Of a stretch of DNA of 64,000 nucleotides, positions 1-33,098 are shown in pieces. Below the pieces are notes generated by a model that saw only the letters and a program-made list of their open reading frames with translations, had not been told where the DNA came from and ran no database searches. The stretch's first letter is position 1; every line of letters starts with the position of its first letter. The stretch is from Bryoerythrophyllum caledonicum (Eukaryota; Streptophyta; Bryopsida; Pottiales; Pottiaceae): the NCBI GenBank assembly GCA_963971425.1, contig OZ020516.1:21583332-21647331 (forward strand), in the 5' to 3' direction. The position numbers and the translations under genes were made by a program.

Positions 1-35
1 GACCAAGAGCCGTGACCAATGAAAATGGATTAATT

Positions 36-93
36 CCATGGTCTCACTTCATGGTCTCACTTCATGGTCACACTTCCATGGTCACACTTCATA
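36..93. repeat. Short tandem repeat, about 14-bp units
   Basis: About four imperfect units built on catggtctcactt / catggtcacactt lie in a row. Around it the first 600 bases hold no convincing gene; the small reading frames there are AT-rich and low-complexity. The motif gaccaaga at position 1 recurs in inverted form near 592-608 with partial similarity beyond it, so this may be the edge of a mobile element cut by the window. Confidence 0.6.
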
Positions 94-2950
94 CAAATGT
101 CATTTTTAAAGCCCTTGGGCCTCTCACTAAGTGTAAACCGAACTTGGACTGGGAGGAATGACCATGTACTAAAAAGTGGGAGTGTTGATTTTTTAATGAA
201 TGCCTAAAGAGGGCAGTATTGCCTAAAATAACAAAGAAAATAAAGCAAGCCAAAAAGACAAAAAGGATAGCCGCCAGTGTAGAACAGAGTAACGTTGGGC
301 CCCCTCCCAACAAAACAAAGAAAAAAACAAAAAACAAAAAATTCAATTTAAAAATAATAAAACAACATTTCAGGCTTAGGGTTTCCTCGTTCCAGCAATG
401 AGAGAACCCTTTTAGCCTCTCTCACCGTAAAATCCGGGGGACCCTCCAACATTATCCATTAGGCCTATTTCTAGGCCTTTTAAGGACCTCAACTCCTTTG
501 GTCACTTTTCTTTTTTCCTCATACTGTAAACCTAAGTCATCCAGGGACGAGTTGATGGAGCCAATCACAGATTTTAGAGGGTCATGGGACGAGTTCTTGG
601 TCCGTAGTGTAAACCGCCCCTTAACTGCTAAGCCTAGGCAAAGTGATATTGCTTAGAGAGATCAACATGATTATAAGTTGTGAATGGACACTTTGCAGGA
701 ACAAGCCGCACAAGGCTATAATGCCATTATGCCTGGAAATGCCAAATGATGTAATCATGCGCATCAATTAAGGGCTGAGTCAGACTTGTTGGTATGAACC
801 TCCCAAAAAATTGTGTCATGCATGATATTTGAAGTCACTCTTTAATGTAATATACAATGAGTTGTATCAAATTTGAATGGCAATACGAGTCGGTTAGATT
901 TGTAAAATACAAATAGTCCGATCATTCTAGTAATTTGCAAGTAGAACTTATCAAAGGTGGTAAGTACCAGATAAAAACTATGGTTTATGCAACGTGGTCA
1001 TTACCGCAACGTGGAGTTATCAAATGCCAGTAGCTTCTCATCTTCCAAAAAGTACTTGGCAAAACTGCCTAAACTGTCATTTCCATGGCGAGAAGTGTAA
1101 ATGACTATAAAAGTATTATTTTCCAATCTGAACTATAGGATCTTGAACTGGATTATCGTAGAAGATATTTTTCCATCCCCTTCTTTAAAAATTGACCTTA
1201 TTAATTAAACCTTGATCAAGGTATAAAATTGAGAATTACTTGTGGTTCAAGTCCTGTAATAGTTGTCTTAAAATAAATAAATAAAATAATTAAATTTTTT
1301 GCAAATTCATACCTTTTTAATTTAATCTTATACAAATACTATCTCCACTTTCAATTTGGACTACAATTATTACAGGACTAAATATAGAGACCACCAAGTC
1401 CTTACATATTCTACTAAAGAATATGGTTGCCAAAGACTAATAAACTCTTCAATATCTAATAATTAAATAAAATGATTAAATAATCACTATGATGAATAAA
1501 AGGATGACAAATCTCACTACACTAAGATTGAGAATTGGTGTTAGACCACATTTAACAAAGCAACCTCTATTGTCCACACTACCCTAATTGTGTATTTGTT
1601 GAAAATGAGTGTCAGTTGCTCATGATTGACATGCCTGTTAATGAGGTAGAAATGATTTAACAAGTATTTAATTAAATTAGATAGATGATGTGTCAACTAC
1701 CTTTAAAATATAATATCCAAAATTCATATTTTTTTTTAAAAATATACTATGTAGCCCTTTGTATCAATTCTTAAAATAGATATATGACATGTCAACGGTT
1801 TTTAGAATGTTGTGTCTAAAAATAGACATTTATGTCTAAAAATTGCCAAGTGGGCCCTCCAAGAGAAGTCCAGTAATAATAAAATAGTCAAGATTTTGTT
1901 AAATGCCTATTTTTTTCAATCTATTTTGATACATTTTCTTATCTTTGATCTATTTTTTAATTTTCTAACATTATTTTGCCATTGATACTAAATGTAAAGC
2001 TAATAAATCTCCAAAGTTATAATTCCCTACATTTAATGTTCACGTTACATTCAGTGTTGACGTTGACATTTAGTGTTCGAGGGTTAAATCTCTGAGTTGA
2101 CATGTAGTGTTTAGATTTGTAATTTGTGTTGCAAACAGTAATTCTCAATTTGAGTGAAGAACTTTAGGTAAGTTTTCTAAGATGTCTAATATGTTTTGGA
2201 TTTTCGGTGAAATTAATGATTTTCATTAGAATGCTTATAAAAGGCTCCTAGAGTCATGCAAAGATGATTCTTGTTCTTTTTATTATATCTACATTACCCA
2301 TTAGAATTTTGGGACTAGAGAATTTAAAGCAACATTTAAACCAAATCATGCTTAATATAATGTAATCACCTTGCATAAGTTTGCTTCTTTAACCAATCAT
2401 ACTTAAATTCAATGAATATTGGTAACCTTTGTATTTTTCAAAAATATATTGGAAGCTCGTTGCTTTTAAATCGTGTATAAAATTATAAATGATGAATTTT
2501 CCAAAACCATTTATGAAGAATTCATCTAAAACTCTTAATTAAGAAACTTTCTTCATGGAACCATACCCTCTAGATCATTTATTGTGCATTCTTTCTTTCT
2601 TTATCATATATTTTAATTATGTACTTTGTTATATAATTCTAATTTTTTTGGTGTCTTTATATTATCTAAAATACCCAAAAATATAGTTTAATGATTTACT
2701 AACATATTCTTAATTCTAGAATATGTCATTAAAGATAGAGTCTACATAGATTAAACTCTCTTCACATTTCAATTTGGACACTTTTAGCTCATTTTATATA
2801 AATTTTCTAATGCTAAATTGAGAAGAAGGTTAGGTCAAATTGACATGCTAAAGTAGATATGCTACACATGAGTGTTTTCCAGGAAAGAAATTTCCATAAA
2901 AATATAAAACTATTTTCCAGCATATTGACAAAACGTAAAACTTTAGAAGA
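94..2950. other. AT-rich intergenic DNA, no gene seen
   Basis: This stretch is AT-rich with short homopolymer and direct-repeat tracts. No open frame in it has plausible protein character and I recognise no RNA gene. It is probably decayed repeat sequence. Confidence 0.5.
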
Positions 2951-2955
2951 CACAT

Positions 2956-3176
2956 TACACTAAAGATGATATTTAGTGTTAACCACACTAATTTGTTTAA
3001 AAGTGCTATAAGTTTTTACTCTTGATGAATATTTTTACCAACTATGTCACCAATGATCACTCTCTTTGGATAGTATTGATAGTTGTGGCCTCGGTAAAAA
3101 TCTTCTTCAAAAGTAAAAATTTATGGCATTACCAAAAACATTAATGTGGTTACACTAAATATCATCTTTAGTGTAG
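2956..3176. mobile_element. Palindromic MITE, copy 1
   Basis: The ends are inverted repeats of about 32 bases: cactaaagatgatatttagtg at the left and its complement at the right, followed inward by aaccaca / tgtggtt. The flanking bases read ta on both sides, compatible with a TA target duplication, although the CACTA/TAGTG-like termini leave the superfamily open. About 220 bp with no coding capacity. A diverged second copy with the same internal sequence lies at 46789-47006. Confidence 0.75.
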
Positions 3177-3371
3177 TTTTTTTCTAAAAATAAACAAAGA
3201 CAAAACTTATCTTTTCGAAGGTAAAAATAACAACTACATTTTGAAGTTTAGGCACATTCAAAACTTGCAATTGGTGGGGATATTTACCACAAAGTTCATT
3301 CATTAAATTACTACTAGGAACGTACTGAAAATTTACTAAAAATACTAAAATGAATGTATTGAACAAATCAA

Positions 3372-3690
3372 CTTACAATCAGGCCAGCACTTGGTGGTTG
3401 CGAAGTGGGTGCTCAAATCATCACTAGATGGCCCCAGTAGCAAGAATTAAGCTGCAACAGTCCTGGCCATGGACCCTCGGTTTCATACGTTGCACTAACA
3501 ACTGCCATGCCGACTCTCATGCTTATAGCCCTGGCAGCAGAGTACAATATTGTACAAGACAGTGACATTCTCATCATGCCGGCAATTGGTGACTACCGAG
3601 TGGGTGCTGAAATCATCACTGGAACGCCCCACTATGTTACCAACAATCAAGTTGCAACAGTCCTCGCCATTGAATCGTCTTTCACTTGTT
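3372..3690. repeat. Two diverged direct repeats of about 110 bp
   Basis: The sequence at 3372-3482 recurs at about 3571-3686. Both contain gagtgggtgct or gaagtgggtgct, then aaatcatcact, then gcaacagtcct and gccat. The second unit reads as a short open frame of about 60 codons, but I recognise no family. It may be a remnant of a tandemly repeated coding region. Confidence 0.5.
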
Positions 3691-6600
3691 AAACATATAC
3701 TAAAAACAAGTTGCAACAATGGTTGTACACTAATTCACTAATTTTTGAATTTTTGATTCAGTTAGGGTAATGCTAAACATGAACCCCTGGGAGGGTAGAG
3801 GCGCCATAATATATGAACATATGAACATATGCATGATCTTTATGACATTGAATGTAACATCGTGGATAGATTTCTAATTCGGAATGTCTCTCATGTGTAC
3901 GTATAAATTGCATTCATATGTGTTTAGAATGCCAACATCTACCAATTCAAAAAGGGTTTAGGGTCCTCAGCGGATTAACTCCTAAAGGACGAAACGTCCC
4001 CCCGGGGTCAAATTGGATTTTGGGCATGTACCTACAATTCGAAAAAAATCCTTTCTAAATATTTCTTTTATACAAGATAGCCTCTAATAAGCCTCTTTGT
4101 GGAGAAATTTCTATTTTGTTTTGTGGACTTGTGGTTTGGAAGTTAGTACCACTAAAAGCCAAAAGTTGGGATTCCGGCACCTCCAAAATTTTTGACAGAA
4201 GTTTCTATTCACATTGAGATTTTAAACACACATAAAGAATATTTCCTTCTTTGGAAATTTTCAAACAAAATTCTTGTCTTTAGTGAAAAAAGGGATGAAT
4301 ATCCAGAGGCTAAAATTTTCACACATTGTTGGGCAACGACAGAAAAAAAAATTCATCTTTTCTACATAAAACCTAGAGATCTTCATATTTTTCACTTCTT
4401 ATATTTTCAACAACAATATGTGGTGAAAACCTTCTAATTGACCGTTTGGATTATCATTCAATACATACGTAGTTCACAAAAAAATAAAACGTGAAATGGA
4501 AATTTATGAACCTCCACTACTTGCACACTGTGTTTTGAATATGCTACACCCCTTTTTTACCTCTAAAAATTCGTGAGTTGGGAAATATCATAATGTTTAA
4601 GACAATGGTAAAAGATTTAGACCTTGTACAATGCAAAAATCTGATACAAAGTGAAGTCAAAGTCTGTTAATCTACTCAACGCAGGGAAGAAAATGAACCA
4701 TTGTTTTGACTTTAAACACTAAAATCTATCAATCCGTGCGGTGGATTGCAACCAAAATCATTATGGCATGTTTATATAGAAGTCTTAATTTAGGCAGCCT
4801 ATGGCCCCTTTTTAGAAATATTAAAATTATTCCTAAAATCAAAGACCCCAAACTAGTCTAGGGGGTCTATTTAGTGAATTTAGAGAACTTAAATATATGA
4901 TTTTTAAACCTTAAATTTTTACTTTTATCACCCATAAAAGAATAGGGGGCTTTTTATCCCACCTATGGGTCCACACTTGGGGGCCCGCTTGCGAGGGCCC
5001 GCTTGTCATTGAATCAAATCATAATCATCAGCGTACCTCACACTGGAATCCCTTTTCATAATTCAACTATCTTTGTGCGCGTCACTTTTTGGGAGAAATA
5101 AATATTGTTGGACAAATATAATTTTCTACTTTGAAAAGAAGCCTATGAAACTATGTTCTCACCGTTTGGATTTCTGGTTTTTAAGATCTTCAATTCTTCA
5201 GAAGAACAAAATGGAAATTAGCAACTTCTCAACCCCTTCTAATTCCAACACTATTTAAACCCCAATAGTTTATGATTTAATTTAATTGTTTTATTTTCAT
5301 TCCCAGTCTATTATCTAAGAAGTGAAACAAACAATTTCATGGTGTTGTTTTTGTAGAAACCGAGTCCTAGAATCTAGGGATTCAAAAAATCTATAACCAT
5401 CTAGGAACTGACATTAGGGATGCTCGAAAATCTATAACCATCTAGGAACAAAGAGTGAGAAGTTAGCCCCTAAATGACATTTTAACCCTTGGGGAACAAA
5501 TTACATTTTGGGTAGGTTCTTGTGGCCCCGATTTTTGCTCATAAACTTTTGAACAGCCTATCAAGATGTGGCATCACGCTAGCTTCATGGGAATGAACCC
5601 TTTTTTTGCATATTGGAGCTCCAAATTTGGTACCTAGTAGAGTCAAAGTTACGGTTGGTCCTTGAATTGTAGGGAAGGAAAAATGCCTCGTTTTATACTT
5701 CAAACATTCTAATCATCCAATCCGTATGGTCAAATTTAATTACGATTGGAGGACATGTTTTTTTAGTTGTATACTTAAAGATCTTATGGTTAATAATATT
5801 TGTTGAGGTTTTTATATTCTCATCCTCGCTTTGCACTTTTATATGTAGTCTTGAAGGAATTTTGGCCCATATCTCCTTATATTTTTGGTACTAGGTCTTT
5901 AAATACTTCTTCTATACATAGTATTGTACAAAAATGACCAATTGAACTGAATTTAAAGCTTACAAGAATTGATGGATTTTATTGCCACCGTCTCTAAATG
6001 ATAGTTTAATTACTAAATAATATTTCCATTCCAAATAGCATTATCAAAGGAGAGGGCCAAATAAAACTTTTTGATTTTGTATGGTTTTTGTAAAAATCCG
6101 ATTCTCCCTATTTTTATCTTGTATTTGACTAGTATTTAGGATTCAATATTAAAATTAGCATTTATCAACTATTGCTTCAAGAAGCAAAGTTGTTATTAAG
6201 TTACATATCATTTTATTCAATTTCAAAGAGGTAGCTAATTGGAATCCTTTGACCTTGAATCCTGATTTACAAAATTTGACTCAAAATGGTTTGGTAAATG
6301 AATACTGCATTTTAGAATATTAATGTATGAAATCTTATCCATGTATCGTTCCGACTCTGATAATTTTATGCTGAAAAATGATGGCAAAGAAATCCCAACG
6401 CGCTATTGTACAACAGTAATGTATAATAAGGGCCGGGGCTCAAGAAGTTAATATGTCACACGTGTTGAACGGCGAAGTGACATTGCATGTTCTGGCTAGA
6501 GTGTAGATCCAAAACTTTATTCTGAAGTTTCAGCATCAGCTTGAAGTGCAGACGTAAGCTAGTATCGATTAGTCCTCCACATTGTGTTTTAACACTTCTT

Positions 6601-6939
6601 ATGTTTACTAAGTTGAACTGTCCATTTCGTATGCCATTTCAGGTGGAATCTCTAATCTTGGGGACTCAAGCTCCTCTGTAGCTTTTGCGTGCATTTCCTG
6701 CGGCCCAACCTTCAGTTCATTATCACTGTGCACCCTTAGAGCTTTTAGTATAGCTTAGTCGGTCGTTGATAATTGGCTTGATTGGTTGTTTTGGATGTGG
6801 GTCTGCATGCTGCTGCAGTGTCTCCTTCAGTATCACTGTGCCTTTTTATTGTAGGGAAGCCATTGTGATTTGTCTGATCTCTTGATTTGGAGGAGGAAAC
6901 ATTTGCAGCAGGTGGCAACCTTAACTCTGCTGTAACACA
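3691..6939. other. AT-rich intergenic DNA with repeat relics
   Basis: No gene is visible. Two copies of a 24-base motif (aatctataaccatctaggaac core) lie near 5386 and 5426. The 20-mer at 4733-4752 is an exact inverted match to 18404-18423, inside the TTAA-flanked element described below, and weaker similarity continues for about 45 bases, so an old relative of that element probably lies here. The last about 400 bases are the presumed 5' region of the plus-strand gene at 6940. Confidence 0.45.
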
Positions 6940-8817
6940 ATGACGTACAAGGGGAAGTCTGCACTAGTACACATGCAAGATGAGCTCTAGTCCAACCAGT
7001 TGACAATCTGGCAGAAGCCTTTCGACCTCACCAAACTACCGAACACAATCACGTCTGAGTTGATAAAGAGGACACCTCTCCTCTTGGGCTCGGACAAGGC
7101 TACATACAGCAAGTTCTTCTTCAAATCCATTGGTGGCCTCTGTGGTTCAGGAATTCCAGTTGAGAACGTGGCTAAAGACGACCATGGAGTTCCGATAGAG
7201 GATCTGGTGGCTACGTATCCCCTCAATCGACACGGGAACCGACACTCCATGAAGCTCATGTCAGACCGCGCTGCAGTCAAGGATGCTTTGGACATGTATC
7301 AGAGAGTTAATGGCGGCAAGCAGCCTGACAATGGTGAGTTTGGGACTGCATTCATTCGGGGTCTTGTTCTGAATTTCCAACGGTCGACGAAGGTCGATTG
7401 GGCTAAGCACGCTTCGGACTTCGCGAGGAAGCGCTTGGAGAACCCTCCAGCAAATCCCTAGAAGCTCACTCCACCGTGTCTCAGAGAACAGATCTAGGAG
7501 ATTATCAATGTCTTTTGCCACTATTTACGGGTGGCCTATGCTGATAGGGATGCAATTGTAGCACAGATGAGGCTACATAATTTCCCTGTAAAGCCCTCAG
7601 ATTTTCCGCTCCGGCAGCCACGGTTGGCAGAAAGTATAACCCCTGTGCGACAGCCACGCAGTGGTGGTCGAGTTCAAACTACACACCGTACACAATCTGC
7701 TGGAGGATTGCCGCCATCGACAGCACTACTCGACCCGGTGGCGACGCTGAAGCACAAGAGGACGAAGATGGAAGAACAGCTATTGAATGGAATGAAGAAC
7801 CTACATGATGCGGAAAGTGAGCTCGAAGTTCTAGATACCTACAAGCATGACCTGGAACAGTCGGAGGAAGCGAATTGGAAGAGTATGGTGGCCATACGAG
7901 CAAAGAAGAAGCGCTTTGGATTGCAACCAGCAGAGCACACCACAATTGAGGAAGAGCTGCGCTCAAAGACAACAACTGCAAGCTCCATGTCTCAGGCCGC
8001 TGTTGATCTTGATAATCAGATGATCGAGTTACAGAACCGCATTGCACTTATTCGAAGAACCACAAAGGAAATGCAAGATGCGCTCGGGGTCATCACTCTT
8101 GAAATTGACGAGACCGTTTTGCACAACAGTAACATTCGCCCTAAGCAAATCTTGACAAGGCTGCCGGTGACCCGTGTGGACCAAGTTAAATTACAGGCGG
8201 ATGTTCCGTGTGTTCTCTGTGGTCGTTTTTGGGTGGATAATGCTTTTGTATGTCTCCCGTGTGGATGCTTGCTGCATCCTGTTTGCATGTTCAAGGTGGC
8301 GTTGTTGCCAAATCCGCGGTGCCCTTTCTGCAGCCATGTGCATGGTAAGCTGTGGCGGGCCCAATGGGGATATACAGCACATAGTGATGAGATGCTTAGT
8401 GCCGCCATAGGTGCTTGTACTGCAGGGATGGATGCTGCTGGGTGGATGAAACCCCTTGACCTAGTGGGTGTGCGGGCAAGGGTGGAAGATGTGTTGCACT
8501 GCATGAGTAGTCAGGAGGCCAATTCTGTGGCTAAACCCAAACGCCCTTTGCCGATGGACAACGAGAATGAAAATGAACCACTTCCTAAACGTGCACATTT
8601 GGAGATCATATCGGCTGAGCCAGTGGACCAGGATATTGCTACAATGATGGAAGAGGTCAGTGCCATTGGTGTTGCAGCGGCGCGTGAAGCCTCAGCAGCA
8701 ACGATGGAAGACACATATTCCATGGATAACGAAACGTCACAAGAGGAGTCGGCAGCAATGGTACAAGATGCCTTTGCCATCACTGCGGCAGCAGCACTGG
8801 AGGCCTCATCGACTTAG
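6940..8817 (+). pseudogene. Coiled-coil / RING-like zinc-finger protein, interrupted by three in-frame TAG codons
   Basis: One frame runs from ATG 6940 to TAG 8815-8817 (about 625 codons) and stays coding-like on both sides of TAG codons at 6988, 7459 and 7495. Read without them, the N-terminal part (about 7000-7460) is a charged globular region of no family I know. A long helical, probably coiled-coil segment follows (about 7740-8130), then a RING-like cluster at about 8208-8330: CVLC, 11 residues later C-x2-CGCLLH-x2-C, and finally CPFC. The C-terminal tail is Ala/Glu/Met-rich. All three stops could be CAG-to-TAG changes. The gene is convergent with the RAG1/Transib-like gene at 9568-12793, so the two may belong to one element; RING domains are common in ubiquitin ligases and also occur in RAG1 itself. 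Function is unknown. From the Met after the third stop the intact part (7531-8817) could still be translated. Confidence 0.6.
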
Positions 8818-9567: not shown

Positions 9568-12500
9568 TTACTCCTCGCAGTAGGATGATTCTTCTGAGAA
9601 AAGGCCATACTGGTGGCCGACAACAGGCGGGATCCCTTCCCTAAACCTTGAACTCTCAGCCACTGCCTCTTCGTTGTCTTGGGATACATACTGCGAGCCC
9701 ACCCGATTACGCCCCTGTCGCCACGTTTCACATGCCGCTGGCGCATCAGAAGCCCACCATGCATCACGACGCTTAGAGGCCGCAGAGATCACAGTTGGGT
9801 CTGGCGTAGACCGCTGCTCTTCTCTAACCTTCAACTCCAACTTGGCTTTATACTGATGCTGAATGTTTCGGTACCAGAATTGATATTGCTGCACTACAAT
9901 GCTTACTTGTTTCTTAGTCCCCCCATGCTGAGAGTGGTATTGGGTACTAGCCTTTGCAGCATGATGCGATTTTTCCATCCCCTGGCAACTCCACACTGAC
10001 AAACTCCCAAACTTATCCACAAACCAAGGCCCATGTTTCACCAGCACGTGCTGCACATTATTACAGCCAACAATGCACTTCAATATGTTGAGTTCAGTAG
10101 AGGCTTATTACTGTAAGCACTTGAGCAAAGCATAACAAGTTGTGAGGAAGAGGCTTATTACTGTAAGCACTTGAGCAAAGCATAACAAGCTGTGAGGAAG
10201 CGAAGGTATTCATCAACCCGTCAGAGGACTCACAATGTAATGAGTGACGTGAGTCTCTCCAAATGCGGCAATAAACGCCTTACCGAATGCATCCATTCGG
10301 ACTCCACAACATTGTCGTTGTTCCTCTGACAACACCAATCCCCTAAAATACGGCAACAAATCCTCTAGTGTTTCCCACACCCGCCAACGTTTCACCCTGG
10401 CAGCACCTCCTTCGAGGTTATTGAACTTGGACATGCATACATCTTTCCAAGCTTTGTCTAGATTAGACCAGGAGCTCTCTTTAAAGAGCTTGCTTGCAAC
10501 AGCCCCACTAAGACTTGGCTTGGTCACAACATTCCGAGTCTTACCTGAGCGCTTGATGTCCTGCTTGAGCACGCAATTGCCCTTCTCCACACCAATGGCT
10601 GACAAAGATTTTTCCATTCTCTCAATGGCTTCAATCTTTCTGTGATCATCCTGCATATTCCATATGAATTGCATATGCAGGTGAAGAATCTTTTCAGTAA
10701 TTCGCACCAGCGCATGTAATGTGCACATGTGTGTCCGAGACAGAGGAATCGGTAAGATCGGCTTCCAACGGGGATGCGTGCTGACATCGCAAGGTTCCGC
10801 TGCAATCCGTGGGGCAAAGAGTCCACCTTGCCACCCTCCCTTTCCCCGCCGACTTGCTTGCCTCTCAGCCTCTGCTGATGTACACGTTACCAAGCGCTCG
10901 TGAACTTGCTCACAATAAATGCAATTCATCTTCGAAGAAGGGCCATGCTGGAGCCCATTCATACATTTGATAGTTTTCATATCCGCACTCAAGTGCCATT
11001 CAACCACAAAGCTACCACGACCAGGCACCTCCAATACTTGTCCATCAGTTTGTGCTTTAATAACCTCGGGATATTTTGTTTGCTGGAACACCCAATCAAG
11101 AATTTCATATGATTCCTTATCCACCTGGAAGCATCCAACAGGCCAAATCTCTTGCTCTGATTGGACAGAAAAATACCTCTGGTCATTCTTTTGAATTGTG
11201 GGGTCGAGCGCTCGATTCATTAGTGTAAGGCTGACGCGCTCATATTTGGCCCCCTGTATAATCTCCGCTTCATCTAGCTTCAGCACAAAAATCAGAGGTC
11301 CATTGTTGCACTCTGCACGCATACATCCAGCAACCGGATTAGTACAACAATACAAGCACCCTGAAATGGAATAGCGGAGGATCTCAAAGCCTGTTCCTGT
11401 TCCTTGGAGCCCACCGGAAACTACCTTCAACAGTCATGTCGTAAAATAAAACCATCGAACGCTGCACAACCTCCAATTCAGCGAAGAGGTTGTTCTTGCT
11501 GTGGAGAATGACCTCCTTTGCTGGCCGCACAACCTTCTTGCCCTGCCGCACTTCTGGGACATGGCGACGACCCTCTATGTGGTAATAATCCCCTATGAAT
11601 TGCGGCAGGTTTTCGTTCAATTGCTTCCTCAATTCTGCCAATTTGTTAGGCGATGGAAGCACAGTACCATGTAATTCCGGAGCCACTAGACCAATTCTAT
11701 TCTTCAAAGTCTTGTAAATCCCTGTGTACCCTCTATGCGTCACAGACGATCCATCAACAGTGCCCAACATGACTTCTTTGGTGAGCACATCCTGGATTTT
11801 CTTGAATACTGATTGTGTGACAGCCATGGTCGCCTGACTCATCTGGGGATGTTCGGCCAGTGCTTTGGCCTCTCCCCGCGAAAGAATGCTAGCAATCACA
11901 GCCGCAGTTTTGTGCTGCGAAGTTCCCTCACCCCCTAGCCTCTTCTTCTTCCCCAGTTGTTTGTTACTCTGCTGCACACGATGTAGCACCTCTGGTAAAA
12001 TTTGGTGCCGCAATTGTGTTGTTTTGCGCTTGAAATACCCAGTACCACTCCTCAAGTCGGTAATATTCTTCATGATTCTTCCATGAACACGCTGATGCAA
12101 TCCGGCAGGCGTTTCCACCATGCATTTCAACTTCTCCTCAAGTTTGCTATACTTGGCTCTAGTCACTACCAATTCTTGTTCAATGGCTACCAACCTCTCC
12201 TGCTGCTCAGTCAACCTCGCAATAGACACACTGTTTTCAGCCAAAGTCACCGTCAACTGGACACACATGCTTTCTAATCTAGCGACCTCATGCTGTGATT
12301 GTTGTCGTTCTTACGCCTCCACAACTGCCGCAATGGCCATCATCCGAGCCTCGCCCTGTAATTGGTCCCGATGCTGTCGCAGTCGAATGGAATCCTGCTC
12401 GTGTCGAGCTAACTCTTTCTCCAGTGAAATAATGCAATTTTTCAAAGCCATTGTTGTGTGCACTTGGTCGACAGTACCACACGCTGGCACGATGTCTCTC

Positions 12501-12793
12501 AAACGCCGAGTATATCCCAACAATCCATCTTCACCATGGCACAAAAACTGGAGAAATTGCTTCAAATTACTGAAACGCGGTGCACATTTTGTTGCAGGGT
12601 CCTCTGGATACAATGCTCCATCTGTCCAAAGGTCAATGTGAGTTTCGCCTCTACCTCTCCTCCCTGCGAAGCTAGATCTATTAGCCTGGTCATCTAGTCT
12701 AGTGCCTCTTCGAACAAGAGGAAGGTATCTCGCATCCATGTGAATTTGCGGTATGTATCCACCCGTCGTATTCGTGACATCTCTAAGTGCCAT
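9568..12793 (-). pseudogene. RAG1/Transib-like DDE transposase, three exons, one in-frame stop
   Basis: Translation starts at ATG 12793. A single TAA (12311-12313) interrupts a frame that is otherwise continuous. I infer two introns: 11361-11424 (64 nt, GT..AG) and 10051-10233 (183 nt, GTGAGT..CAG). Splicing restores one frame of about 992 codons, close to RAG1 length. An N-terminal region and a long coiled coil precede the catalytic part. There, Asp (11272-11274, in LKLDEAE) is followed 97 residues later by Asp (10981-10983, in SADMK), 20 residues later by CIYC (10912-10923), and, across the second intron, by HVLVKH and Glu (9973-9975, in CQGMEK). The two His lie 25 and 20 residues before Glu. 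Mouse RAG1 has D600, D708, C727/C730, H937/H942 and E962, i.e. nearly the same spacing, including the exact -25/-20 His positions. The reaction expected of the family is hairpin-forming DNA cleavage and strand transfer. The family call is by motif and spacing only; other RNase H-fold transposases with zinc inserts are the alternative. Confidence 0.7.
10101..10200. repeat. 50-bp tandem duplication inside an intron
   Basis: Units 10101-10150 and 10151-10200 differ at one base (t/c at 10140 and 10190). Both lie within the inferred second intron of the RAG1/Transib-like gene, so the duplication does not touch coding sequence. The near identity indicates a recent event. Confidence 0.95.
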
Positions 12794-13380
12794 GCTGAAG
12801 CAGCCTACCGGGCAACAGATGACCGCATGCACGTCTCAAACTGCACATGCACAACTGGCCAATGACTACATTCTCCCGCCACTCCACGCATTCTCTGCCA
12901 ACACTATAACTCCCGCCACAATTTGCATGCTGTCATGTTTACAACAACCTTGGCGCCAATCCGAATACATTAAAGTTGCATAAAAAATACAAGTTGTACA
13001 TTCACTTCTATTAGATATACAAGTCGGGGAAGGACCAAGCATGCGGCCACACTCATAAGTCAATACAGATGACGATGCGGTTGGGGGGCAGCATTCGCCA
13101 CGTTGGGAAACCAAAGTCGGCATTATTAGCTACGCTGGGCGTCGATGCTTGGCAGCATTGTCCATGGTGGACACCAGCGCATCCTACTACGCCACTACTT
13201 CACAACGGCCGTAACAGCGATTGAGACTGTTTCCAACTACCCGCCGGAAAAACTTGTACACTTGGACGCATGCCCGAGGCAAAAAGCCATGCAACCAGCC
13301 TGCCCGCACATGCCTTAGAGGGCCTTTTGAAGAGCCGAAAGTGCTTCTAATGAGCCCTTCTTCATGGAAAGACCAGATGT
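12794..13380. other. Spacer upstream of the transposase-like gene
   Basis: No gene or terminal inverted repeat was recognised. The presumed promoter of the minus-strand gene and possibly one end of its element should lie here. Short open frames on the minus strand look like shadows and have no recognisable content. Confidence 0.4.
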
Positions 13381-14847
13381 AGTTCCTCCATCCCTGAGTC
13401 CAAGGGGGATCCACCGCCTCGCGTTGTTCCTGGTCGACCTCAAATTCCACTGCCAAGGAAACTTTATCTCCAACTTGACAACTCCGCCAAGGATAATAAG
13501 AACAGATTTGTGATGGCATTCTACTCTCTCCTTACGGCCCGAAGAATTTTTAAAGAAGTCACCGTGGGCTTCTTGATTGTCGGGCACACTCACGAAGATA
13601 TTGTTGCTCATTTCAATTACTTATCCAAACATCAAGAGGAAAAACACTTACTGTTTGGCTGACCTTATGAAATCCTTCATGGACTCTCAATAAACTGTGG
13701 CTTTCATTCCGGAGTTTGTGCAAGAGGTGGCTGATTTTAAATCTTTTATCAGTGACTTTCATCATGACGGCTCAAACAGAATTGTTGGATTGGCGGAACT
13801 TCACCTCTTCAAGTTTTACGTCGAAGAAGAAGGCGGCGACGCTGGCTGGCCGGTTATGAGATACAAGAAATCCGCCACGGATTCCTCTTGGCTCCCTCCA
13901 GGTATGCCCTTCATTTATTGTCATTTGGTTCACACTCAACTTCTCTTCCCGTCGGCGGACCGCCGACCAAGTCACCATCATTTTTCGGTTTCACTCATGC
14001 ATGGTGTCATTTTGATTCTTTTCCAGGTAAGCCCGTCAAGATGTAGAAGGCCGATGCCGAAGGAAACCCACGCCTAGCTGTTGGTGAACCCAAGCCTGTC
14101 CGGTTCAAACCCCTCTGGGGTGATTGCACCATAAATTGTAGGAAGAGGAATAAGGAGAAGGAAGCTGCCCAGGTTTTCGCGGTCACCGAGAAGAAGACGT
14201 TCATCCAGGACGGAATTGCAAAATATATTGATTTCTGGAAGTCTGGTATGTCCCACGATCAGAGATATGCACTTGACATGGCGCCCTATGTTGACTACTG
14301 AACGCGTATTCACAGGGAGATTTCTAGTCGCCTTCCTTCTAACCAGGAAGCTCTTCTTGAGGGATTATGGATCGGCTTCGTCCTCCGGCTAAGTATCCGG
14401 AGCAGATTCGAACACCTTTGGCACAGCACGATTGCGGAAATGATCAATCCCATGCGTGACGTCCTCCTTGATGATTTTGTGCTTGTCCACCATTCGGATA
14501 AGCACTATCTTCCAGTCTGGATGTGCCGAGTCCTGACAAAGGTCGATACAAACCCAGGAAAGACTTATGGTAACTTCCAAGTTGAATGATGGACACCACC
14601 GAGATTGAAGAAGGATAAAAGAAATACGATCGCTAGAGAATGTTGGACCAGGCCCTGGGTAAAGGAAAATGGGATTCCTCAAATTACGAATTGCAAATCC
14701 GTACCCTACTCGCATCGCTCTCCTTCTCACAAGAAGAAAGGACCTCCAATTCATCATCAAATCCCTGAAGAATCAGCCATAGCCGCAATTGCTTGCTTAG
14801 AGGCTGGCGGTGTCTACATGAACCCTGATGAAGACATTGAGGACTGA
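13381..14847 (+). pseudogene. Relic of a DUF7869-type protein (C-terminal two thirds)
   Basis: From about 13381 the frame reads through YLQLDNSAKDNKNRF and VGFLIVGHTHEDI, the hallmark of DUF7869 proteins, then a frame shift near 13640 leads to a segment (13697-13910) containing VQEVADFKSF, LHLFKFYV and WPVMRYKKSA. A GT..AG intron of about 120 bases seems to follow (about 13901-14026). The last segment runs from about 14047 to TGA 14845-14847 with TGA codons at 14299 and 14587. The N-terminal part with the cysteine cluster is missing. The family is common in algae, bryophytes and animals and looks like a transposon-derived RNase H-fold enzyme, though its activity is unproven. The better preserved relative is at 61561-63999. 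Clearly non-functional here. Confidence 0.75.
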
Positions 14848-19437: not shown

Positions 19438-20021
19438 AGTATATACATCTCATACTATCTGGCACCATATTCCTCCTGACTTGGTCCTTCAGGAAGCACT
19501 TTCAGGAAAACTCTATTGCTTAATCTAAGCTCTCTGATATGGTTCAGTCGCGCTCGGCCAGATATACATTTATTATCAGGATTCGAGCTCCGTAAAAAAT
19601 TCATCGGAAACATGCGATCCAAGGATCTTGTGGCACCGAAACTGGTAAAATATCACTTGCCAGGAAGCTAACGTACAGACAGACCGTGTTGGCCGTGTTG
19701 TGTTGTGTTAGAAAGCTAACAGTGATGGCAGCCCGATTCGGATCCGAGCCTGGTCTTACTTCAAACTCACGCTCAAGTGCGAGCTTATAAGTCCTCTCCT
19801 GCTCCCTCTTCCTTCAAAACATCTTGCTGCAGAAATATTGATTGGGTTTTGAAGCTTACCAGAGACTCACGTTTGCGCTCCAGAGTTTCCTATTGATTGA
19901 AAGTAGGAGCTGCTGTTGTATGTCGTGCTGAGGCAGAAGTGGTTGGCTGTCGCGCAGATAGATTTGAAGAAGTGGACCATCAGCTTCATTGTTCTCGCAT
20001 TTCATTGTCATATTTGGCAAG
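19438..20021 (+). promoter_or_regulatory. Promoter and 5' leader of VIT/VWA gene 1
   Basis: Homology with the second gene begins at about 19446 and contains cttataag (19784-19791), a TATA-like box that is conserved at 41784-41791. A pyrimidine-rich stretch follows and the leader to the ATG is about 200 bases. A conserved, duplicated upstream region suggests the two copies kept similar regulation. TATA assignment is by sequence only. Confidence 0.5.
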
Positions 20022-23000
20022 ATGAGTTCCATTTTTTACGTTGTAATTGGAACTGGGAGTGATGAATTCAGGGAGCGCGAAATGGCGCCGCTCGAGTCTG
20101 TGTCGGTGACAGGTCAGATTCGTGACTCAGTCGCAGAGTATACCTTGACACAGACATTTCTGAACCCGCGCAAAGACACCGCCATCGAAGCAGTGTACGC
20201 CTTCCCGTTGTACGAGGGCGCGGCGGTGTCGGGATTCGAGGCAGAGGTGGATGGCAGGAAGATCGTCGGGCGGGTGCAAGAGCGAGCCGCAGCGCGGAAG
20301 GAGTACGACGAGGCTGTGCAGGCCGGGAAGGTGGCGAGCCTGTTGGAGCAGGAGCGCCCGGACTTGTTCCAGGCGTCTATCGGAAATATCCCACCCGGGC
20401 ACAAGATCCGCATCCGCCTTACTCTGGTCTCGGAGATCAAGCAGGACGCGGACGAGAATCAGGTGCGGTTTGTGCTGCCCACCGCCATCGCGCCTCGCTA
20501 CGGCGCGAGCCCCGTGAGCGCGTCAAATGTGGACTCATCGGCTTCGAGGCTGTCTGTGAACATTTCGTGCGCCATGTCGAAGCCCATCACTTCGATTCAG
20601 TCGCCTTCCCACACCATTCAGGTTCATCTTGGCAGTGGGAGTGACGATCATTTTGAGCCGAATCGTGCGAGGGTGAGCTTGACGGCGGATGCTCTTCTCG
20701 ACAAGGACGTTGTTGTCATTGTTCAGTCGCAGGGACTGGACGCGCCGCGTGCATCGGTGGAGCGCCACCCGAGAGATGGAACGCACGCAGTTTCGTTGAC
20801 GTTTGCGCCACGCTTTGCGCTCAACGCTCTGCGAGCCTCAGAGCTCATTTTCCTCGTTGACAGGTCGTACTCTATGTGCGGCTTCCAGATCAAGCAGGCA
20901 GGCGAGGCGCTGGAGCTTTTCCTGCGATCCATCCCTCTTGAGAACCACTACTTCAACGTGATTGGATTCGGGTCAACTCACAAGGCGCTCTTCCCCAAGT
21001 CTGCGCCATATTATGAAGACTCGCTGAAGAAGAGCATCTCATACGCGCAGCAGCTGGAGGCGGACATGGGCGGGACCGAGATGAAGAGCGCCTTCCAGGA
21101 GGCCCTCCAGCGCCGCCGTCGCGACGTGCCAACGCAGATCTTCCTGCTCACGGACGGGGAAATTTGGGACGTGGACAACCTGGTGGAGGTCGTGAGAGAG
21201 GCCGTGGAGGAGGGCGAGAAGAGCAGGTCCTTCGTGAGAGTCTTCTCGCTGGGTGTGGGCGCCTCTGTCTCCCATCACCTCATTGAATCGGTCGCCAGGG
21301 CCGGCGGCGGGTACGCCCAGCTCGTCGTGGAGGGAGAGCGAATGGAGAAGAAAGTGGTGAATATGCTGAAAGCGGCGCTGATGCCGCCTGTCACTGATCT
21401 GGGCGTGCAATGGACGGATGCAAATGAAGAGGATTTTGAAATGGTTGAGTCCGAGGTGGTGCCAAAACCCGAGGTGGAGCCTTCTCCCAAACCGACCATC
21501 AATTTGTTCGACACTTCTCTAGATGTGGCTTCTCCTAATCCTCCTCCTCCCGTTCCGCTCCCCAACGTCGTCATTCCAATCCAGCAAGCTCCGTTTAAGG
21601 CGCCATCGCTCTACCGAGGTGCAAGGTTCACAATGTACGCAGTCCTTTCGCCAACAACCCCGGTTCCCAACGAGCTCATTCTGCAAGGCCTCTCCCCAGA
21701 CGGACCAGTGGAGCTCAAAGTAAAGGTGGGCTGCCTTCAAGAGGGCGAGACGATGCTACACACGCTGGCAGCGCGCGCCCTGGTGCGGGATTTAGAGGAA
21801 GGCTCCTCTTGCATCCACGCTTTGGGACGAGACGCCAGCGAGAAGAGACTCCACGGGGTGCAGGTCACGACTGAAGACGGCAAGAAGTACAAAGACCTTC
21901 CGTTGAGCAGCAACCTCGTCTCCGAGCTCACGAAGCAGAAGATTCTGGAGCTCGCACTGAAATACAACTTGTCGTCGAAGCACACGAGCTGGGTCGCCAT
22001 CGACTCAGAGAGCCAGGAGCGGTTCTTTCACGACGAGGTGAAGGAAGTGGAAGGACTCGTGGTAGGCATGAGTTTGGGCACGAAGTCCCGTGCATCCGGA
22101 CCAAAGTTCGGCTGTGCATCCGGACCGGTTTCATTTCAAAGAATGTCTTCAGGTGTGCGGTTTTCATCAGCTATGCCCCGCACACCGCCAGGATCTGCAC
22201 TCGCAAGAGGACTAGTTATGTCCTGCGAGCGTGTACCGCGAGCGTCTGCATTCGATGGTGGAGTAGCTATGTCCTGCGCACCGGCAGCATCTGCAATCCC
22301 AGAAAGAAGAGGTCCCAGGGAAGGCTGCGCACCGCCAGCATATGCATTCGGAGGAGGAGTACCCATGTCCTGCGAGCGTGCACCGCAAGAGTCTGCATTC
22401 GATGGTGGAGTAGCTATGTCCTGCGCACCGCCAGCATCTGCATTCCCAGATAGAAGAGGTCCCGAGGAAGGCTGCGCACCGCCAGCATATGCATTCGGAG
22501 GAGGAGTACCTATGTCCTTCGAGCGTGCACCGCGAGCGTCTGCATTCGATGGTGGAGTAGCTATCTCCTGCGCACCGCCAGCATCTGCATTCGAAGGAGG
22601 AGAATCGTTGAAGCAGAAGAAATTCTCGTCTTTGGGCGATTCACCGGGCCGACTGTCGAGACCGCGCGTTGCACGAGGCGGTGTGGGCGCTGCCTTGATG
22701 GGATTATTCAAGACCAAAATACCGGGAGAACTGGAATTTATCGACGACTGTTCTAAGGAGCCGGAGATGGAGGGCAGCGAGGAAGAAGCAGGGCTCTCCT
22801 CTCGTGACCCGCATGCGCGGTTGCGCTCCATTCTGCAGCACCAGCAGTTCGACGGTTTGTTTTCTCTCAACTCTGCCATTGCTGCCCTGTTCTCCACCAC
22901 TGTAAAGGAGCTGCAGCGAAAGCTGGCGGAGCTGAAGGAGGCCGAGGGATCGAAACTTTCGGAGACGGTGTGGGCGACGTGTTTGGCTGTGGAGCTGATG

Positions 23001-23153
23001 CGGAAGCAGCTGCCGGAGTTGCAGGAGGAGTGGGAGCTTGTTGTTGAGAAGGCTGAGAAACGAGTGGCGGCGCTCGTGAAAAGTGCTGAGAATTTGGCTG
23101 TGCTCCAAGAGGCTGCCAGTGACATGGTCCACGAATCCTTCAAGGCAGATTAA
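20022..23153 (+). CDS. VIT and von Willebrand A domain protein, copy 1
   Basis: Single exon of 1043 codons from ATG 20022 (ATG AGT TCC); upstream in-frame codons lack an ATG. Residues about 25-150 form a VIT (vault inter-alpha-trypsin) domain with YTLTQTF and the Y-A-F-P strand. A VWA domain spans about 276-455 with a complete MIDAS: DRSYS at 280-284, GGTE near 352 and TDGE near 378, so metal-dependent ligand binding is expected. A Pro-rich linker, a beta-rich region, a Cys/Ala/Gly repeat array (about 730-865) and a C-terminal helical domain with VWATCLAVEL and WELVVEKAEKR follow. This layout resembles fungal, amoebal and plant VIT-VWA proteins and the non-catalytic part of PARP4. No signal peptide or membrane segment is evident, so a cytosolic scaffold or vault-related role is possible. 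Exact function unknown. The near-identical paralogue is at 42022-44838. Confidence 0.92.
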   Translation: MSSIFYVVIGTGSDEFREREMAPLESVSVTGQIRDSVAEYTLTQTFLNPRKDTAIEAVYAFPLYEGAAVSGFEAEVDGRKIVGRVQERAAARKEYDEAVQAGKVASLLEQERPDLFQASIGNIPPGHKIRIRLTLVSEIKQDADENQVRFVLPTAIAPRYGASPVSASNVDSSASRLSVNISCAMSKPITSIQSPSHTIQVHLGSGSDDHFEPNRARVSLTADALLDKDVVVIVQSQGLDAPRASVERHPRDGTHAVSLTFAPRFALNALRASELIFLVDRSYSMCGFQIKQAGEALELFLRSIPLENHYFNVIGFGSTHKALFPKSAPYYEDSLKKSISYAQQLEADMGGTEMKSAFQEALQRRRRDVPTQIFLLTDGEIWDVDNLVEVVREAVEEGEKSRSFVRVFSLGVGASVSHHLIESVARAGGGYAQLVVEGERMEKKVVNMLKAALMPPVTDLGVQWTDANEEDFEMVESEVVPKPEVEPSPKPTINLFDTSLDVASPNPPPPVPLPNVVIPIQQAPFKAPSLYRGARFTMYAVLSPTTPVPNELILQGLSPDGPVELKVKVGCLQEGETMLHTLAARALVRDLEEGSSCIHALGRDASEKRLHGVQVTTEDGKKYKDLPLSSNLVSELTKQKILELALKYNLSSKHTSWVAIDSESQERFFHDEVKEVEGLVVGMSLGTKSRASGPKFGCASGPVSFQRMSSGVRFSSAMPRTPPGSALARGLVMSCERVPRASAFDGGVAMSCAPAASAIPERRGPREGCAPPAYAFGGGVPMSCERAPQESAFDGGVAMSCAPPASAFPDRRGPEEGCAPPAYAFGGGVPMSFERAPRASAFDGGVAISCAPPASAFEGGESLKQKKFSSLGDSPGRLSRPRVARGGVGAALMGLFKTKIPGELEFIDDCSKEPEMEGSEEEAGLSSRDPHARLRSILQHQQFDGLFSLNSAIAALFSTTVKELQRKLAELKEAEGSKLSETVWATCLAVELMRKQLPELQEEWELVVEKAEKRVAALVKSAENLAVLQEAASDMVHESFKAD
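22221..22610 (+). repeat. In-frame 147-bp (49-residue) tandem repeats
   Basis: The motif tcctgcgagc (tccttcgagc in the last unit) starts at 22221, 22368 and 22515, a strict 147-base period. Each unit encodes a Ser-Cys-Glu-Arg-Ala-Pro type segment, FDGGVAMSCAPPASAF, a short charged spacer and CAPPAYAFGGG. Copy 2 keeps only about one unit, which accounts for most of its 105-residue deficit. Confidence 0.9.
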
Positions 23154-28599: not shown

Positions 28600-28770
28600 A
28601 CTAAGGAAGAGACAAGTATACATCAGCTCAGCACCAAAGAAGAGACGAGTATAGATCATAGCTACAGGCCCAACACCGGCACCAAGGAAGGGACGAGCAC
28701 ACATCAAAGCAGCAGGTCCAGCACCAACACCAAGGAAAAGATGAGACTACAACAAAGTTAGAGGAGCAAC
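28600..28770. repeat. Degenerate repeat with caccaaggaag motif
   Basis: Units of about 50 bases built on cagcaccaa-gaagagacgag and aacaccggcaccaagg follow one another. They grade into the minisatellite at 28795. Confidence 0.5.
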
Positions 28771-28794
28771 ACCGGCACCAACATACAGGACCAA

Positions 28795-29195
28795 CAACAA
28801 CAGTTCCAAAGCACGAAGGTCCACCTTTAAAAGTACGAAGACCCAGCTCCAAAGATACGAAGGCCCAGCTCCAAAGCGCACAGGTCCAGCTCCAGAAGTT
28901 TGAAGGTCCAGCTCCAAAAGTACGAAGGACCAGCTCCAAATTGCGAAGATCCAGCTCCAAAAGTACGAAGTGCCTACTTCAAAGTACGAAGGTCCACTTC
29001 CAAAGATACAAGGCCCAGCTTCAAAGCGCAAAGGCCCAGCTCCAGAAGTACGAAGGACCAGCTCCAAAGTACGAAGGCCCAGCTCCAAAAATACGAAGGC
29101 CCAACTCCAAAGCGCGAAGGCCAGGTTCCAAAGAGAGAAGGTCCAGTTCCAAAATTGCAAAGGTCCAGCTCCAAATGCGAAGGTCTAGCTCTAAA
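28795..29195. repeat. Minisatellite, about 27-bp unit
   Basis: About fourteen imperfect units with the core aagtacgaaggcccagctcc. Because 27 is a multiple of three the array is open in several frames on both strands and produces repetitive nine-residue peptides (plus strand QLQKYEGPA-like, minus strand LRTLELVL-like). I do not regard either as a protein gene. The array may be the 5' untranslated part of a retroelement. Confidence 0.8.
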
Positions 29196-30009
29196 CACAC
29201 ATCACCGTCAGCAACTCCAGCAAGCACCGACACCGAACCTGAAGGAGAAGATTACCGCCAACGACACAATCACCTGCAGCAGAGGCAACAAAAGTAGTAG
29301 AAGGACAAAGCCAGCCCAACCGCGCCCAACAACAACAAAAGGGAGTCAACAAATATGGGAACCCCACAGCTGCCACAGGACTTCACACAGCCCAAGACCA
29401 AACCCGACATTGAGGTACGTTAACTCACAGGTAGGTCCTCTCACCCAAATCTCATTGTTAACATTGTACCTTCCTTCTCTAATCAGTAACAGGTACCACC
29501 AGAACTCAACGACAGCCACATTCAAATATAAACGGAAGATCGTTACCAGGACCACTAGCAAGCTCCAATGCTTACGCGCCCAAGCTACCAATGGATACAA
29601 CAAGAGAAGCGCCAAGACGAATGATCTAAGACGAAAACCTAACGACGGCACCCCAAAAAAAGATCAAGCCAAGAAACCTGCAACCCTAGATCCAAGATCC
29701 AATCATCACAACCCTCAAGATCTAATCGCGCAGTTGGCAGCACCACAAAATCCTAGCCGCCACCAATCCAAGAAACGAATGTATGCAACAGCAACAGAAA
29801 ACGCCAACGCTTCAAAGGAAGACGCACTAAGGTATAAAACATATACTCATGCATTGGGGAAACCCTCTTTCAATCACTCCTTCGACTACTCCCTTTACGC
29901 CTTCCTAGCGCCTACACCAAACAACACCTGGGAGCAAGAATTTTTGGAGTACAACACTGACTGCACAAGGGGGACAGACCAAAGACGCCGACAGGAGGGG
30001 AAGCTCTGA
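29196..30009 (+). other. Open frame downstream of the minisatellite, unrecognised
   Basis: One frame stays open from the minisatellite at 28900 to TGA 30007-30009 (369 codons). The non-repetitive part is rich in Asn, Thr, Pro, Lys and Arg, without hydrophobic periodicity or a known motif. It could be the start of a gag-like protein or chance. No start codon choice can be justified. Confidence 0.25.
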
Positions 30010-31396
30010 CAGCTGCTAGCGTGTAAACTAGATCCCTGGCAACGCTCGTCAACCCCGCTAGACCCCCAACTGAAATTTTTCAGTAGTGAAGTACACCTAA
30101 CTCTATCTCTGCATTATCTACTTTTATGTTGTATTAGAACTTCTGAACCCTCGCACACACCAGTTTGGCACCTCACAAGCACATGTAGAACCCACTTCGT
30201 ATGTACTAAACCCCCCCTCCTACATAGCTGCAACATAAGAAAAAAAGAGGCAGATACAAAGAGAACCACAGCAAACGAAACAAGGTGGCAGAAGTAGCGC
30301 ACCTTTAGATCCAGAAGAAGCAAATAGGACACGTACAGATTGTTCGAAGATGACAGGAGCACGCGCACACAACAACAAAAGGTAAGAACGGAGGGGCAGC
30401 CCAACATCACGAAGTAGCCTGGATCATCTTGTCAGCCTCCCGCCGACATACATCGACACAACCGCCGCAACTCTCCTCAGCCCGAGCCAACAAGAGATCG
30501 GAGGACGAAGCTCGAGGGCCAGAAGAAACCCACAACCCAAGAAGAAAGAACGCCAACCCGCTGCATCGAACCCACAACAAGAAGAGGAAAAGAAGTCAAC
30601 CAACGCGACAGCACACACAACTGCAGAAGCCGCAAACACTAGTGAAGCAAGTAACCGGAGGAGGTGCAGACCCTAAGAGGCGGACGCCCAAGACTGCCGC
30701 ACAAGTAGAGCGCAAGAGAAAGACGACTGCAGCCGACCCAGATACAACGCTCGTAGACAACACAGCTGTAGCAACGTGCATCCTGGCGGCACTACCCAGC
30801 CAAACACACGTGCGCTATTGACAGCCGAGGAGGAGACAGGCGCCAGCACAGAGCAGCCAAGAAACAAGGGCGTTAGTGAACGTTGGATTGGCTGCACCTG
30901 ATGGAGACCCATTGTAGGTCGACTGACTCCAAGGGAGCAAAGGAGCCAGGGGGATACGAATCACTACACCACAAGGTTACCCCAACTCGAAACCACATAC
31001 TCAGGTTGCAACCTCCTATCTCTCTTAAAGTTTTATGACCATTGCTATCAGTTGGTTTATTTTGCAAACCAATGGGCATGTATTCAAATACCAATATTAA
31101 AACATGTTACTTGGGGAGGTGCCCCTTACTGTAGCACCTCTCGTGTGTGTATATGTGTAATAGTTGTTAAAGGTCATAGCACTAGTCACCTTCCACAACC
31201 ATTTGGTAAGTACTGTCAGTCTTATTGCTTGAACAATGTTAATATTGTCATATCTTACTCCTTCTTGAAAATCTTAATGTCAACAAGCCCTCAATGCATG
31301 TTGAAGGGAGATGTTAAGATCAAGATGATAAGGAGAAAAACAGAAGTAACATGGTACATTTTAGCTAGTAACACTCTTATATCTTATTTCTACAGC
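30010..31396. other. Non-coding region before the LINE
   Basis: A perfect hairpin ctgaaatttttcag lies at about 30069-30083, directly before tagtg. Open frames near 30429-30821 are basic and low-complexity. I see no recognised family. The 5' end of the LINE probably lies in the second half of this stretch, but it cannot be placed. Confidence 0.35.
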
Positions 31397-31568
31397 ATGC
31401 CTCCGACGACCGCTACGCCCTCTAAGCGCCTTTTCGTTGACGTGGTTGAGGAAAACCCTTGTACTATGAATGTAACCCAAAAGTCCTTAATGATCACAAG
31501 TACCACCCAGAAAAAGGTGAAGGCAACAAGTTTGCCTTCAACCAAATACTGGTTAGGCTTCCAAAACA

Positions 31569-32979
31569 ATGAATACCATTGCAAAGAAAAATGGAGGTCA
31601 AAAGGTGTCTAGTGTTACCATTGAAGAAATGATTGAGAATGGGATAGACAAAAAAGAGGCAGCTCAAAGTTGCGAGGCAATGCCCTCATTCCCATTTATC
31701 CCCCAAGAAGAATGGCCCTATAAACGGGCTGATGGGAAGGAGAGAAACCATTTTAACCTCATACAACTTCCAAGTGAAGTTGAGGTGGATACAAATGGCT
31801 TTGCCTTGGACTACCAAATCTCCATTCACTTTGAATTGGGAAGTCAAATATGGTCCAAATACGTTGTGTTAGACATGGTTAAAACAAGATTGAAAGAGAT
31901 GGACATTGCCTTAGGGACATGTATTGGGGAACCAATTGCCATTTTTTGCCACCACCAATCCAATAATTGGACTGGTGTGGCTAAATTACACCTTAAAAAC
32001 CGGGAGGCTGATGCCAAAGGGATGTTGCAAGGTCTGAGGCCCTTCATCCTTATCCTGAATGAAGGGATACCACACCAAGGGAAAGTATGCAAGTCATACG
32101 ATTCCTTGGCTTTCTCACACCTCCTATCAATAAAAATAACCGGCCCTAACCTTGCCAACATAGAGGCATACAACTTGTATGAGGAGATTATGAAAGATAT
32201 TTTTGCTAGAAGTTATGACTTCGAAGTTACAAGAGTAGAAAAGAAATGTTCTTATGAGTTTGCATGGGTCAAAACTCCCTCCCCGGAATAGGCAGCCAAA
32301 ATAAAGGACTATAAAATATCATTTTACAATGAGATTTTTGTACCCGTTTTTGCAATCTGGAAAATGGATGAGGATGAGATCGCAAAGAAGAACTGTCTAA
32401 TTTTAATTGCAAAAAACCTTAAGAAAACAAAAAACGAAAAAGACTTAGAAGAAGGAATAAAATCCATACTTGGAGAGGAGAATGTGGTGGACACATTCTT
32501 CAAACTTGAATATGGGCGCCACGTAGGGACTTGCAATATCGAATGTCTAAATGCGGATGTATACAAAAAATATGTCAGACAAAGTAAAAAACTTCACAGA
32601 AAATATATAATGTTTACCCCCCACCCCAAGAGTCTAGATGGCAGCAACAAATCCATCATGGAGGAATTAACACGGCTTGGGTTCACGGATGTAAATCCGG
32701 CGGTAGCTAACGCGGTAATAGCCATGGAGAACGGCCCAAACAAAGGCAATGGCATCACCCTTCAACAACTCCGAAGAGAAATGAAAACCATGAAAGGAGA
32801 AATTGTCGAGGAAGCAAAACTATACACAGACATGGTGCAAACAAACACGGTAAAATCCCTTAGAGGGGAGATGTCAACTCTTTGATCCCAACTCATTGCA
32901 ACCATCATGGCGGCAGAAACACAAGCATCTGAACGAGAACACCGAGCCATTGAAAACAAGATGGATATGTCAAACTAAT
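31569..32979 (+). pseudogene. LINE ORF1 protein, two in-frame stops
   Basis: One frame runs from ATG 31569 to TAA 32977-32979 (about 469 codons) with isolated TAG 32289-32291 and TGA 32883-32885 in otherwise coding-like sequence. The protein is acidic/basic mixed with a globular central part and a helical C-terminus (KGEIVEEAKLY onwards, probable coiled coil). I see no zinc knuckle. Position directly upstream of an APE/RNase H ORF2 and similar base composition identify it as LINE ORF1, whose usual role is nucleic-acid binding in the RNP. An upstream open segment from 31397 is in another frame and may belong to an older 5' end. Confidence 0.65.
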
Positions 32980-33098
32980 AGCGTCAAACAACGCTACAAT
33001 TAAAATAAATATTATAGTATATATCTATACTAAAATACATATTGTATACTCCAAAAATATATATATAGTATATCTATATACTACCAAACAAATAAAAA

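Follow-up and report, generated by a model that had tools for sequence, protein, structure and literature searches.

The window analysed here, a 64,000-nucleotide stretch of Bryoerythrophyllum caledonicum contig OZ020516.1, carries on its minus strand a three-exon gene that, judged from its sequence and its relatives, is the transposase of a large, high-copy and recently active DNA transposon, the window copy being damaged. At two sites elsewhere in the genome, insertions of this element lie between two adjacent target bases, none gained or lost. The element probably represents a separate lineage of the type of the EnSpm-Mirage-Chapaev-Transib (CMCT) clade, moving by cut-and-paste with at least two genes and seamless insertion, and related to RAG1 and Transib while belonging to neither; its comparison with the named group Lanisha is by description only. 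According to the excerpt of PMC12730594, CMCT elements carry a C(2)C and an H(3-4)H motif after the second D and before E, end in most cases in 5'-CA..TG-3', and make target-site duplications of 2–5 bp. The distinctive features of the present element are zero-duplication insertion and a RING-like partner.

Copies, termini and target sites

Exon 2 of the transposase has 105 matches across the 437-Mb genome, from which 20 copies (L009–L028) were fetched for comparison. Their 5' ends are sharp at CATTAGA, and the inverted termini span 34 bp, from CATTAGA to GGCCCT. Both ends can be read in six copies (L018, L019, L020, L023, L024 and L025) as CATTAGAACCAATGTCGGGTCATGGGAGGGCCCT and, inverted, CATTAGAACTAGATTCGGGTCATGGGAGGGCCCT, giving CATTAG...CTAATG. 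The terminus pattern CATTAGA-N12-TC-N7-GGCCCT occurs 91 times genome-wide, against zero matches for a reversed control. Dropping 33 of the 105 rows, which are either pieces of copies already listed or weaker fragments standing apart, leaves 72 core places; in 29 of these a terminus in the correct orientation lies no more than 6 kb upstream, and in none does a wrongly oriented one. Paired ends delimit elements of 12.2, 14.8, 15.3, 20.9 and 24.4 kb (examples of pairs are C9:8529681–8550541, C7:17695965–17720326 and C15:12828134–12852550), with longer pairs of 42–44 kb and one of 2.5 kb; an inverted pair 2.06 kb apart (C8:21220893–21222954) may be a non-autonomous derivative. A search of the fetched older copies for the far-end terminus found none at first, the pattern search later placing a few.

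The six copies with both ends are young, 12–15 kb long and differing by 0.40–0.60% over the 5.2 kb compared; four of them (L018, L019, L020 and L025) are stop-free in the aligned transposase region, which runs from halfway along exon 1 through exon 3. The window copy is probably inactive because exon 1 holds an in-frame TAA. Its left (far) end was looked for within the window and not found; this end probably lies outside, since two other copies, on contig C856 and at C1:56.886–56.899 Mb, match stretches across 1–7000 at 89–96%.

No direct repeat of 3–8 bp flanks any of the six young copies (L020 alone shares 2 bp, a chance-size match), and their insertion sites have no common AAATTT-like motif. 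Empty-site comparison covered L018, L023 and L024. The flanks of L024 and L023 sit in other repeats, and the joined flanks of each match at least 40 places across the junction. All aligned empty paralogues (five for L024, three for L023) are exact there, with 0 bases gained or lost; within the 300 bases but away from the aligned part, the L023 empties carry some bases more than the joined query. An excised element could also have been inserted by end joining at a break already present, but exact junctions fit this route less well. Some observations weigh against a seamlessly inserting member of the CMCT type: the comparison for L018, whose flanking repeat is AT-rich and diverged, is ambiguous, two aligned empties having 3 extra bases near the junction; the no-duplication result comes from one subfamily only; and a duplication of 0 bp, in that one subfamily examined, departs from the 2–5 bp of the clade.

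The transposase and its relation to RAG1

The spliced minus-strand gene put forward in the original prediction is borne out: its exons are separated by introns at 11424–11313 and 10233–10051, both GT...AG, the second of which joins ...HVTHYI to HVLVKHG.... This intron has the same position in the other copies holding the region, although its GT is lost in L010 and L014 and its AG in L017 and L026. In the window copy it also contains a 50-bp tandem duplication (10099–10198). The encoded protein has the signature D-x96-D-x19-CxxC...HxxxxH-x19-E. The original prediction had set its spacings (97, 20 and 25/20) beside mouse RAG1 D600, D708, C727/C730, H937/H942 and E962; the codons check out, as do the mouse residues when compared with the PDB letters.

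The 10 copies aligned over exon 2 all keep the second D, the first C and THY, and all but one keep the first D (E in L017) and the second C (W in L012); a 16-row alignment agrees, adding a second W in place of the second C, in L026. None of the eight copies aligned over exon 3 varies at either His or at the Glu, and exon 1 is conserved at the protein level in other copies. Conservation of this kind argues that the signature is more than chance. The gene bears the mark of purifying selection, with a ratio of non-synonymous to synonymous substitution of 0.10–0.16 in six of 36 copy pairs, the remaining 30 being saturated at synonymous sites.

The H-H-E block supports homology to RAG1. A local hhalign profile alignment to the mouse protein lands on H937, H942 and E962 (score 38.2, P = 4.4 × 10−4), better than all 200 shuffles (best 32.4) and all seven unrelated window proteins (best 20.9). 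With a three-sequence RAG1/BbRAGL/HzTransib H-H-E block the score is 25.6 (P = 0.0034), which none of 150 column shuffles reaches (best 21.1). The D-D block gives no significant alignment to RAG1 (P = 0.27), and RAG1 and Transib are absent among the matches listed in PDB sequence and profile searches. Pfam searches with pieces of the transposase, to E = 1, list neither a RAG1 nor an EnSpm family among their matches.

The fold model is poor (predicted local distance difference test score, pLDDT, 39.7). At this low confidence, its predicted succession of strands, b1(D) b2 b3 a b4 then D, would suit an RNase H fold, and a Foldseek search against 350,542 PDB chains ranks HzTransib first and mouse RAG1 second, neither significantly; this ranking suggests homology to RAG1. 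VIA-align places model residues 1–110 on HzTransib 113–223 and RAG1 589–707 with low Z; its rows are without EnSpm or Chapaev and have no bearing on these either way. Most likely the transposase is a DDE (Asp-Asp-Glu) enzyme of RNase H fold, with a zinc insertion of the RAG1/Transib/CACTA type in which CxxC and HxxxxH follow the second Asp and precede the Glu. The RAG1/Transib-type assignment survives for the architecture; identity with RAG1 or Transib itself is not supported, given the CATTAG termini and the lack of a 5-bp duplication.

The second gene and the rest of the window

A linked second gene accompanies the transposase (Table 1). The genome has 78 matches to its main frame at E up to 1 × 10−3, the weakest perhaps being other coiled coils. 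In 10 copies (L010–L015, L017, L021, L026 and L027) a homologue sits close to the transposase and on the other strand; in the six young copies the second gene runs in the same direction as the transposase. Ten of the 20 copies fetched (L022 weakly, E = 9 × 10−5) have a relative of the upstream open stretch, as does L030, a stretch downstream of L025. The zinc finger of the window copy reads CxxC-x13-CGC-x2-H-x2-C-x11-CxxC. Its Cys/His pattern fits nine of 11 aligned sequences, one of the others having a Cys-to-Tyr change and one, a more distant paralogue, a different spacing. The term RING-like is purely descriptive, because the only Pfam match is a weak one to zf-RING_2 (E = 0.22, on the L029 protein). 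The Pfam search of the second gene gave no Kelch or PHD match, and a RAG2-like partner was rejected on this ground.

Two further frames were seen in other copies. Where L015 continues into the reverse complement of L047, another relative of the zinc-finger partner, with altered Cys/His spacing, lies downstream of the first (approximately 12125–13847 of the joined sequence, minus strand). L029, of the young subfamily, has a 417-residue open frame (4667–5917, minus strand), which was not found in the stretches of L013, L015, L021 and L026 searched.

Table 1 Features of the element in the window
Feature	Position	Strand	Remarks
Transposase exon 1	12793–11425	minus	N-terminal region, probable coiled coil, region before RNase H-like domain; start and donor GT verified
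Transposase exon 2	11312–10234	minus	D, D and CxxC; ends HVTHYI; 10-copy alignment
Transposase exon 3	10050–9568	minus	HxxxxH, Glu and C-terminal tail; coding to 9571, stop 9570–9568; 8-copy alignment
First Asp	11274–11272	minus	Codon-verified
Second Asp	10983–10981	minus	97 residues after first Asp; codon-verified
CxxC	10923–10912	minus	Cys 10923–10921 (20 after second Asp) and Cys 10914–10912; codon-verified
HxxxxH	10050–10033	minus	His 10050–10048 and His 10035–10033; codon-verified
Putative catalytic Glu	9975–9973	minus	25 and 20 residues after first and second His; codon-verified
In-frame stop TAA, exon 1	12313–12311	minus	Missed in the original prediction
5' terminal inverted repeat, CATTAGAAGCACTTTCGGCTCTTCAAAAGGCCCT	13319–13352	minus	Fits family pattern; outer end of element at 13352; letters verified
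Second gene, open stretch (first exon region)	6991–7461	plus	Convergent with transposase; homologues in fetched copies
Second gene, main open frame (439 residues)	7498–8817	plus	Coiled coil, RING-like zinc finger, acidic tail
Zinc-finger core CVLC...CGCLLHPVC...CPFC	8209–8331	plus	Alignment of 11 sequences
AT-rich rest of element	1–6990		At least one other repeat nested; matches two other copies

The AT-rich part contains a nested repeat at 3975–4785, which has many genome copies (87–92% identical). A minus-strand open frame at 61564–63435 has a DUF7869 domain (E = 2.7 × 10−46) and is likely a transposon protein; by eye, 13354–13662 resembles this frame, which suggests that the element landed in such a repeat. 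Elsewhere, near-identical long open frames of 1061 and 956 residues (19968–23150 and 41968–44835) lie on the same strand 22 kb apart, VIT/von Willebrand-A-like by eye and pointing to a recent duplication. The region 28600–40600 is strand-skewed, G-poor and A+C-rich on the plus strand (GC skew to −0.47), with open frames that by eye resemble a retroelement of the long interspersed nuclear element (LINE) type (endonuclease, RNase H-like).

Affinities, mechanism and significance

With the other groups placed in the CMCT clade (EnSpm/CACTA, Mirage, Chapaev, Plavaka, ESTA and Lanisha), the element shares C(2)C and H(4)H motifs between the second D and E as well as 5'-CA..TG-3' ends; its transposase shows no EnSpm similarity among the Pfam matches listed. 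It may simply belong to Lanisha (Repbase Reports 2020; Maumus, McDaniel and Carey), in which case it is already named and the mechanism is unchanged. We consider this somewhat unlikely. In its favour, the excerpt of PMC12730594 puts Lanisha in CMCT with C(2)C and H(3-4)H motifs like those found here; against it, that excerpt also states a 2–5-bp duplication for the clade, at odds with the insertions seen in this genome. Lanisha is further said to resemble EnSpm, a family missing from the Pfam matches listed to E = 1. Also in favour is a host genome that looks streptophyte-like: the plant-like character originally proposed is upheld by the LEAFY SAM family (PF01698, best E = 1.3 × 10−27). LEAFY marks streptophytes, and two of the Lanisha authors reportedly study the moss Ceratodon purpureus.

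A derived EnSpm/CACTA element would account for the terminal CATTAGAA, one base off a CACTAGAA-type CACTA terminus, and CACTA elements have a similar two-gene layout and length. It is nonetheless improbable, given the same Pfam result to E = 1 and flanks without a 3-bp duplication. By eye, none of the genome's best 150 of 420 Transposase_21 matches (weakest E = 2.5 × 10−55) falls on the cores of this family. An ordinary CACTA element was rejected on these Pfam and Transposase_21 results. A viral origin was also considered and dropped, six pattern matches in viral contigs having yielded no confirmed relative.

Likeness to Transib is closest in the H-H-E block, where HzTransib (PDB 6pqn/6pqy) has HKLLIHG...GSLS...E and the element HVLVKHG...GSLS...E; in each the second His belongs to an HG and the Glu is preceded by GSLS, with a longer gap before GSLS in HzTransib. 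The order D, D, CxxC, HxxxxH, E is also common to the two. RAG1 and the RAG-like transposons (ProtoRAG, TransibSU and AanRAGL) share with the element an identical H(4)H-to-E spacing and a zinc-binding-protein gene adjoining the transposase; the RAG-like transposons also have two conserved blocks in their termini. Together with the top Foldseek ranks, these features would favour a true plant Transib or RAG-like transposon, a reading we regard as highly improbable. Transib termini begin CAC, like the heptamer of a recombination signal sequence, whereas the element begins CATTAGA. Excerpts of PMC4411706 and PMC9435367 give Transib and RAG-like transposons a 5-bp duplication, absent here, and the latter gives CACACCC for the AanRAGL terminus. 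No whole-protein match to Transib is among those listed in the PDB searches, significant alignment is confined to a short block, and the partner, RING-like, differs from that of RAG-like transposons in showing no Kelch or PHD match. Membership of Transib or RAG was rejected on the termini and the missing duplication.

That the RAG1 likeness is coincidental, the transposase belonging to an unrelated DDE or other transposon family, is very doubtful. Such a reading would suit the failure of any family to recognise the transposase in Pfam or PDB sequence and profile searches, the low-confidence fold and the non-significant D-D block. Against it stand an in-register profile alignment that beats every shuffle run, the HzTransib and RAG1 fold ranking, and seven key residues that are conserved in order with near-identical spacing. 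A separate CMCT-type lineage, seamlessly inserting, remains our preferred reading. Zero target-site duplication itself has a precedent in Spy, of the PHIS superfamily (excerpt of PMC4482050), which is PIF/Harbinger-related and targets AAATTT, a motif not seen at the six sites here. Our literature search, within the excerpts retrieved, found no zero-duplication CMCT member and no report of this element.

In the mechanism we propose, the transposase would pair two bipartite ends, each with a CATTAGA block and a GGCCCT block, and its DDE site would cut the paired ends. Both 3' ends would then be joined to directly opposite target phosphates, a zero stagger, and gap repair would therefore leave no duplication. 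For the coiled-coil, RING-like zinc-finger partner our guess is a binding role, probably at the ends, at target chromatin or in a ubiquitin pathway. It is possible, and we advance it tentatively, that a RAG1-related lineage of land plants or charophytes built a two-component machine independently and changed its strand transfer to a zero stagger, giving seamless insertion.

Plants with a relative of RAG1 are no novelty, since 39 Transib-like plant proteins have already been reported (excerpt of PMC9435367). If the tentative reading above is true, the RAG1/Transib/CACTA clade would have in this element its first branch without a duplication, and one on which to test what determines duplication length there. 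Duplication length is a readout of two-site strand-transfer geometry; a relative with zero duplication would show that this geometry can collapse to zero while the enzyme architecture stays the same, for which Spy is the example in a different superfamily. The transposase would also add to the RAG1-like enzymes accompanied by the gene of a zinc-finger partner, which bears on the origin of RAG1–RAG2 pairs.
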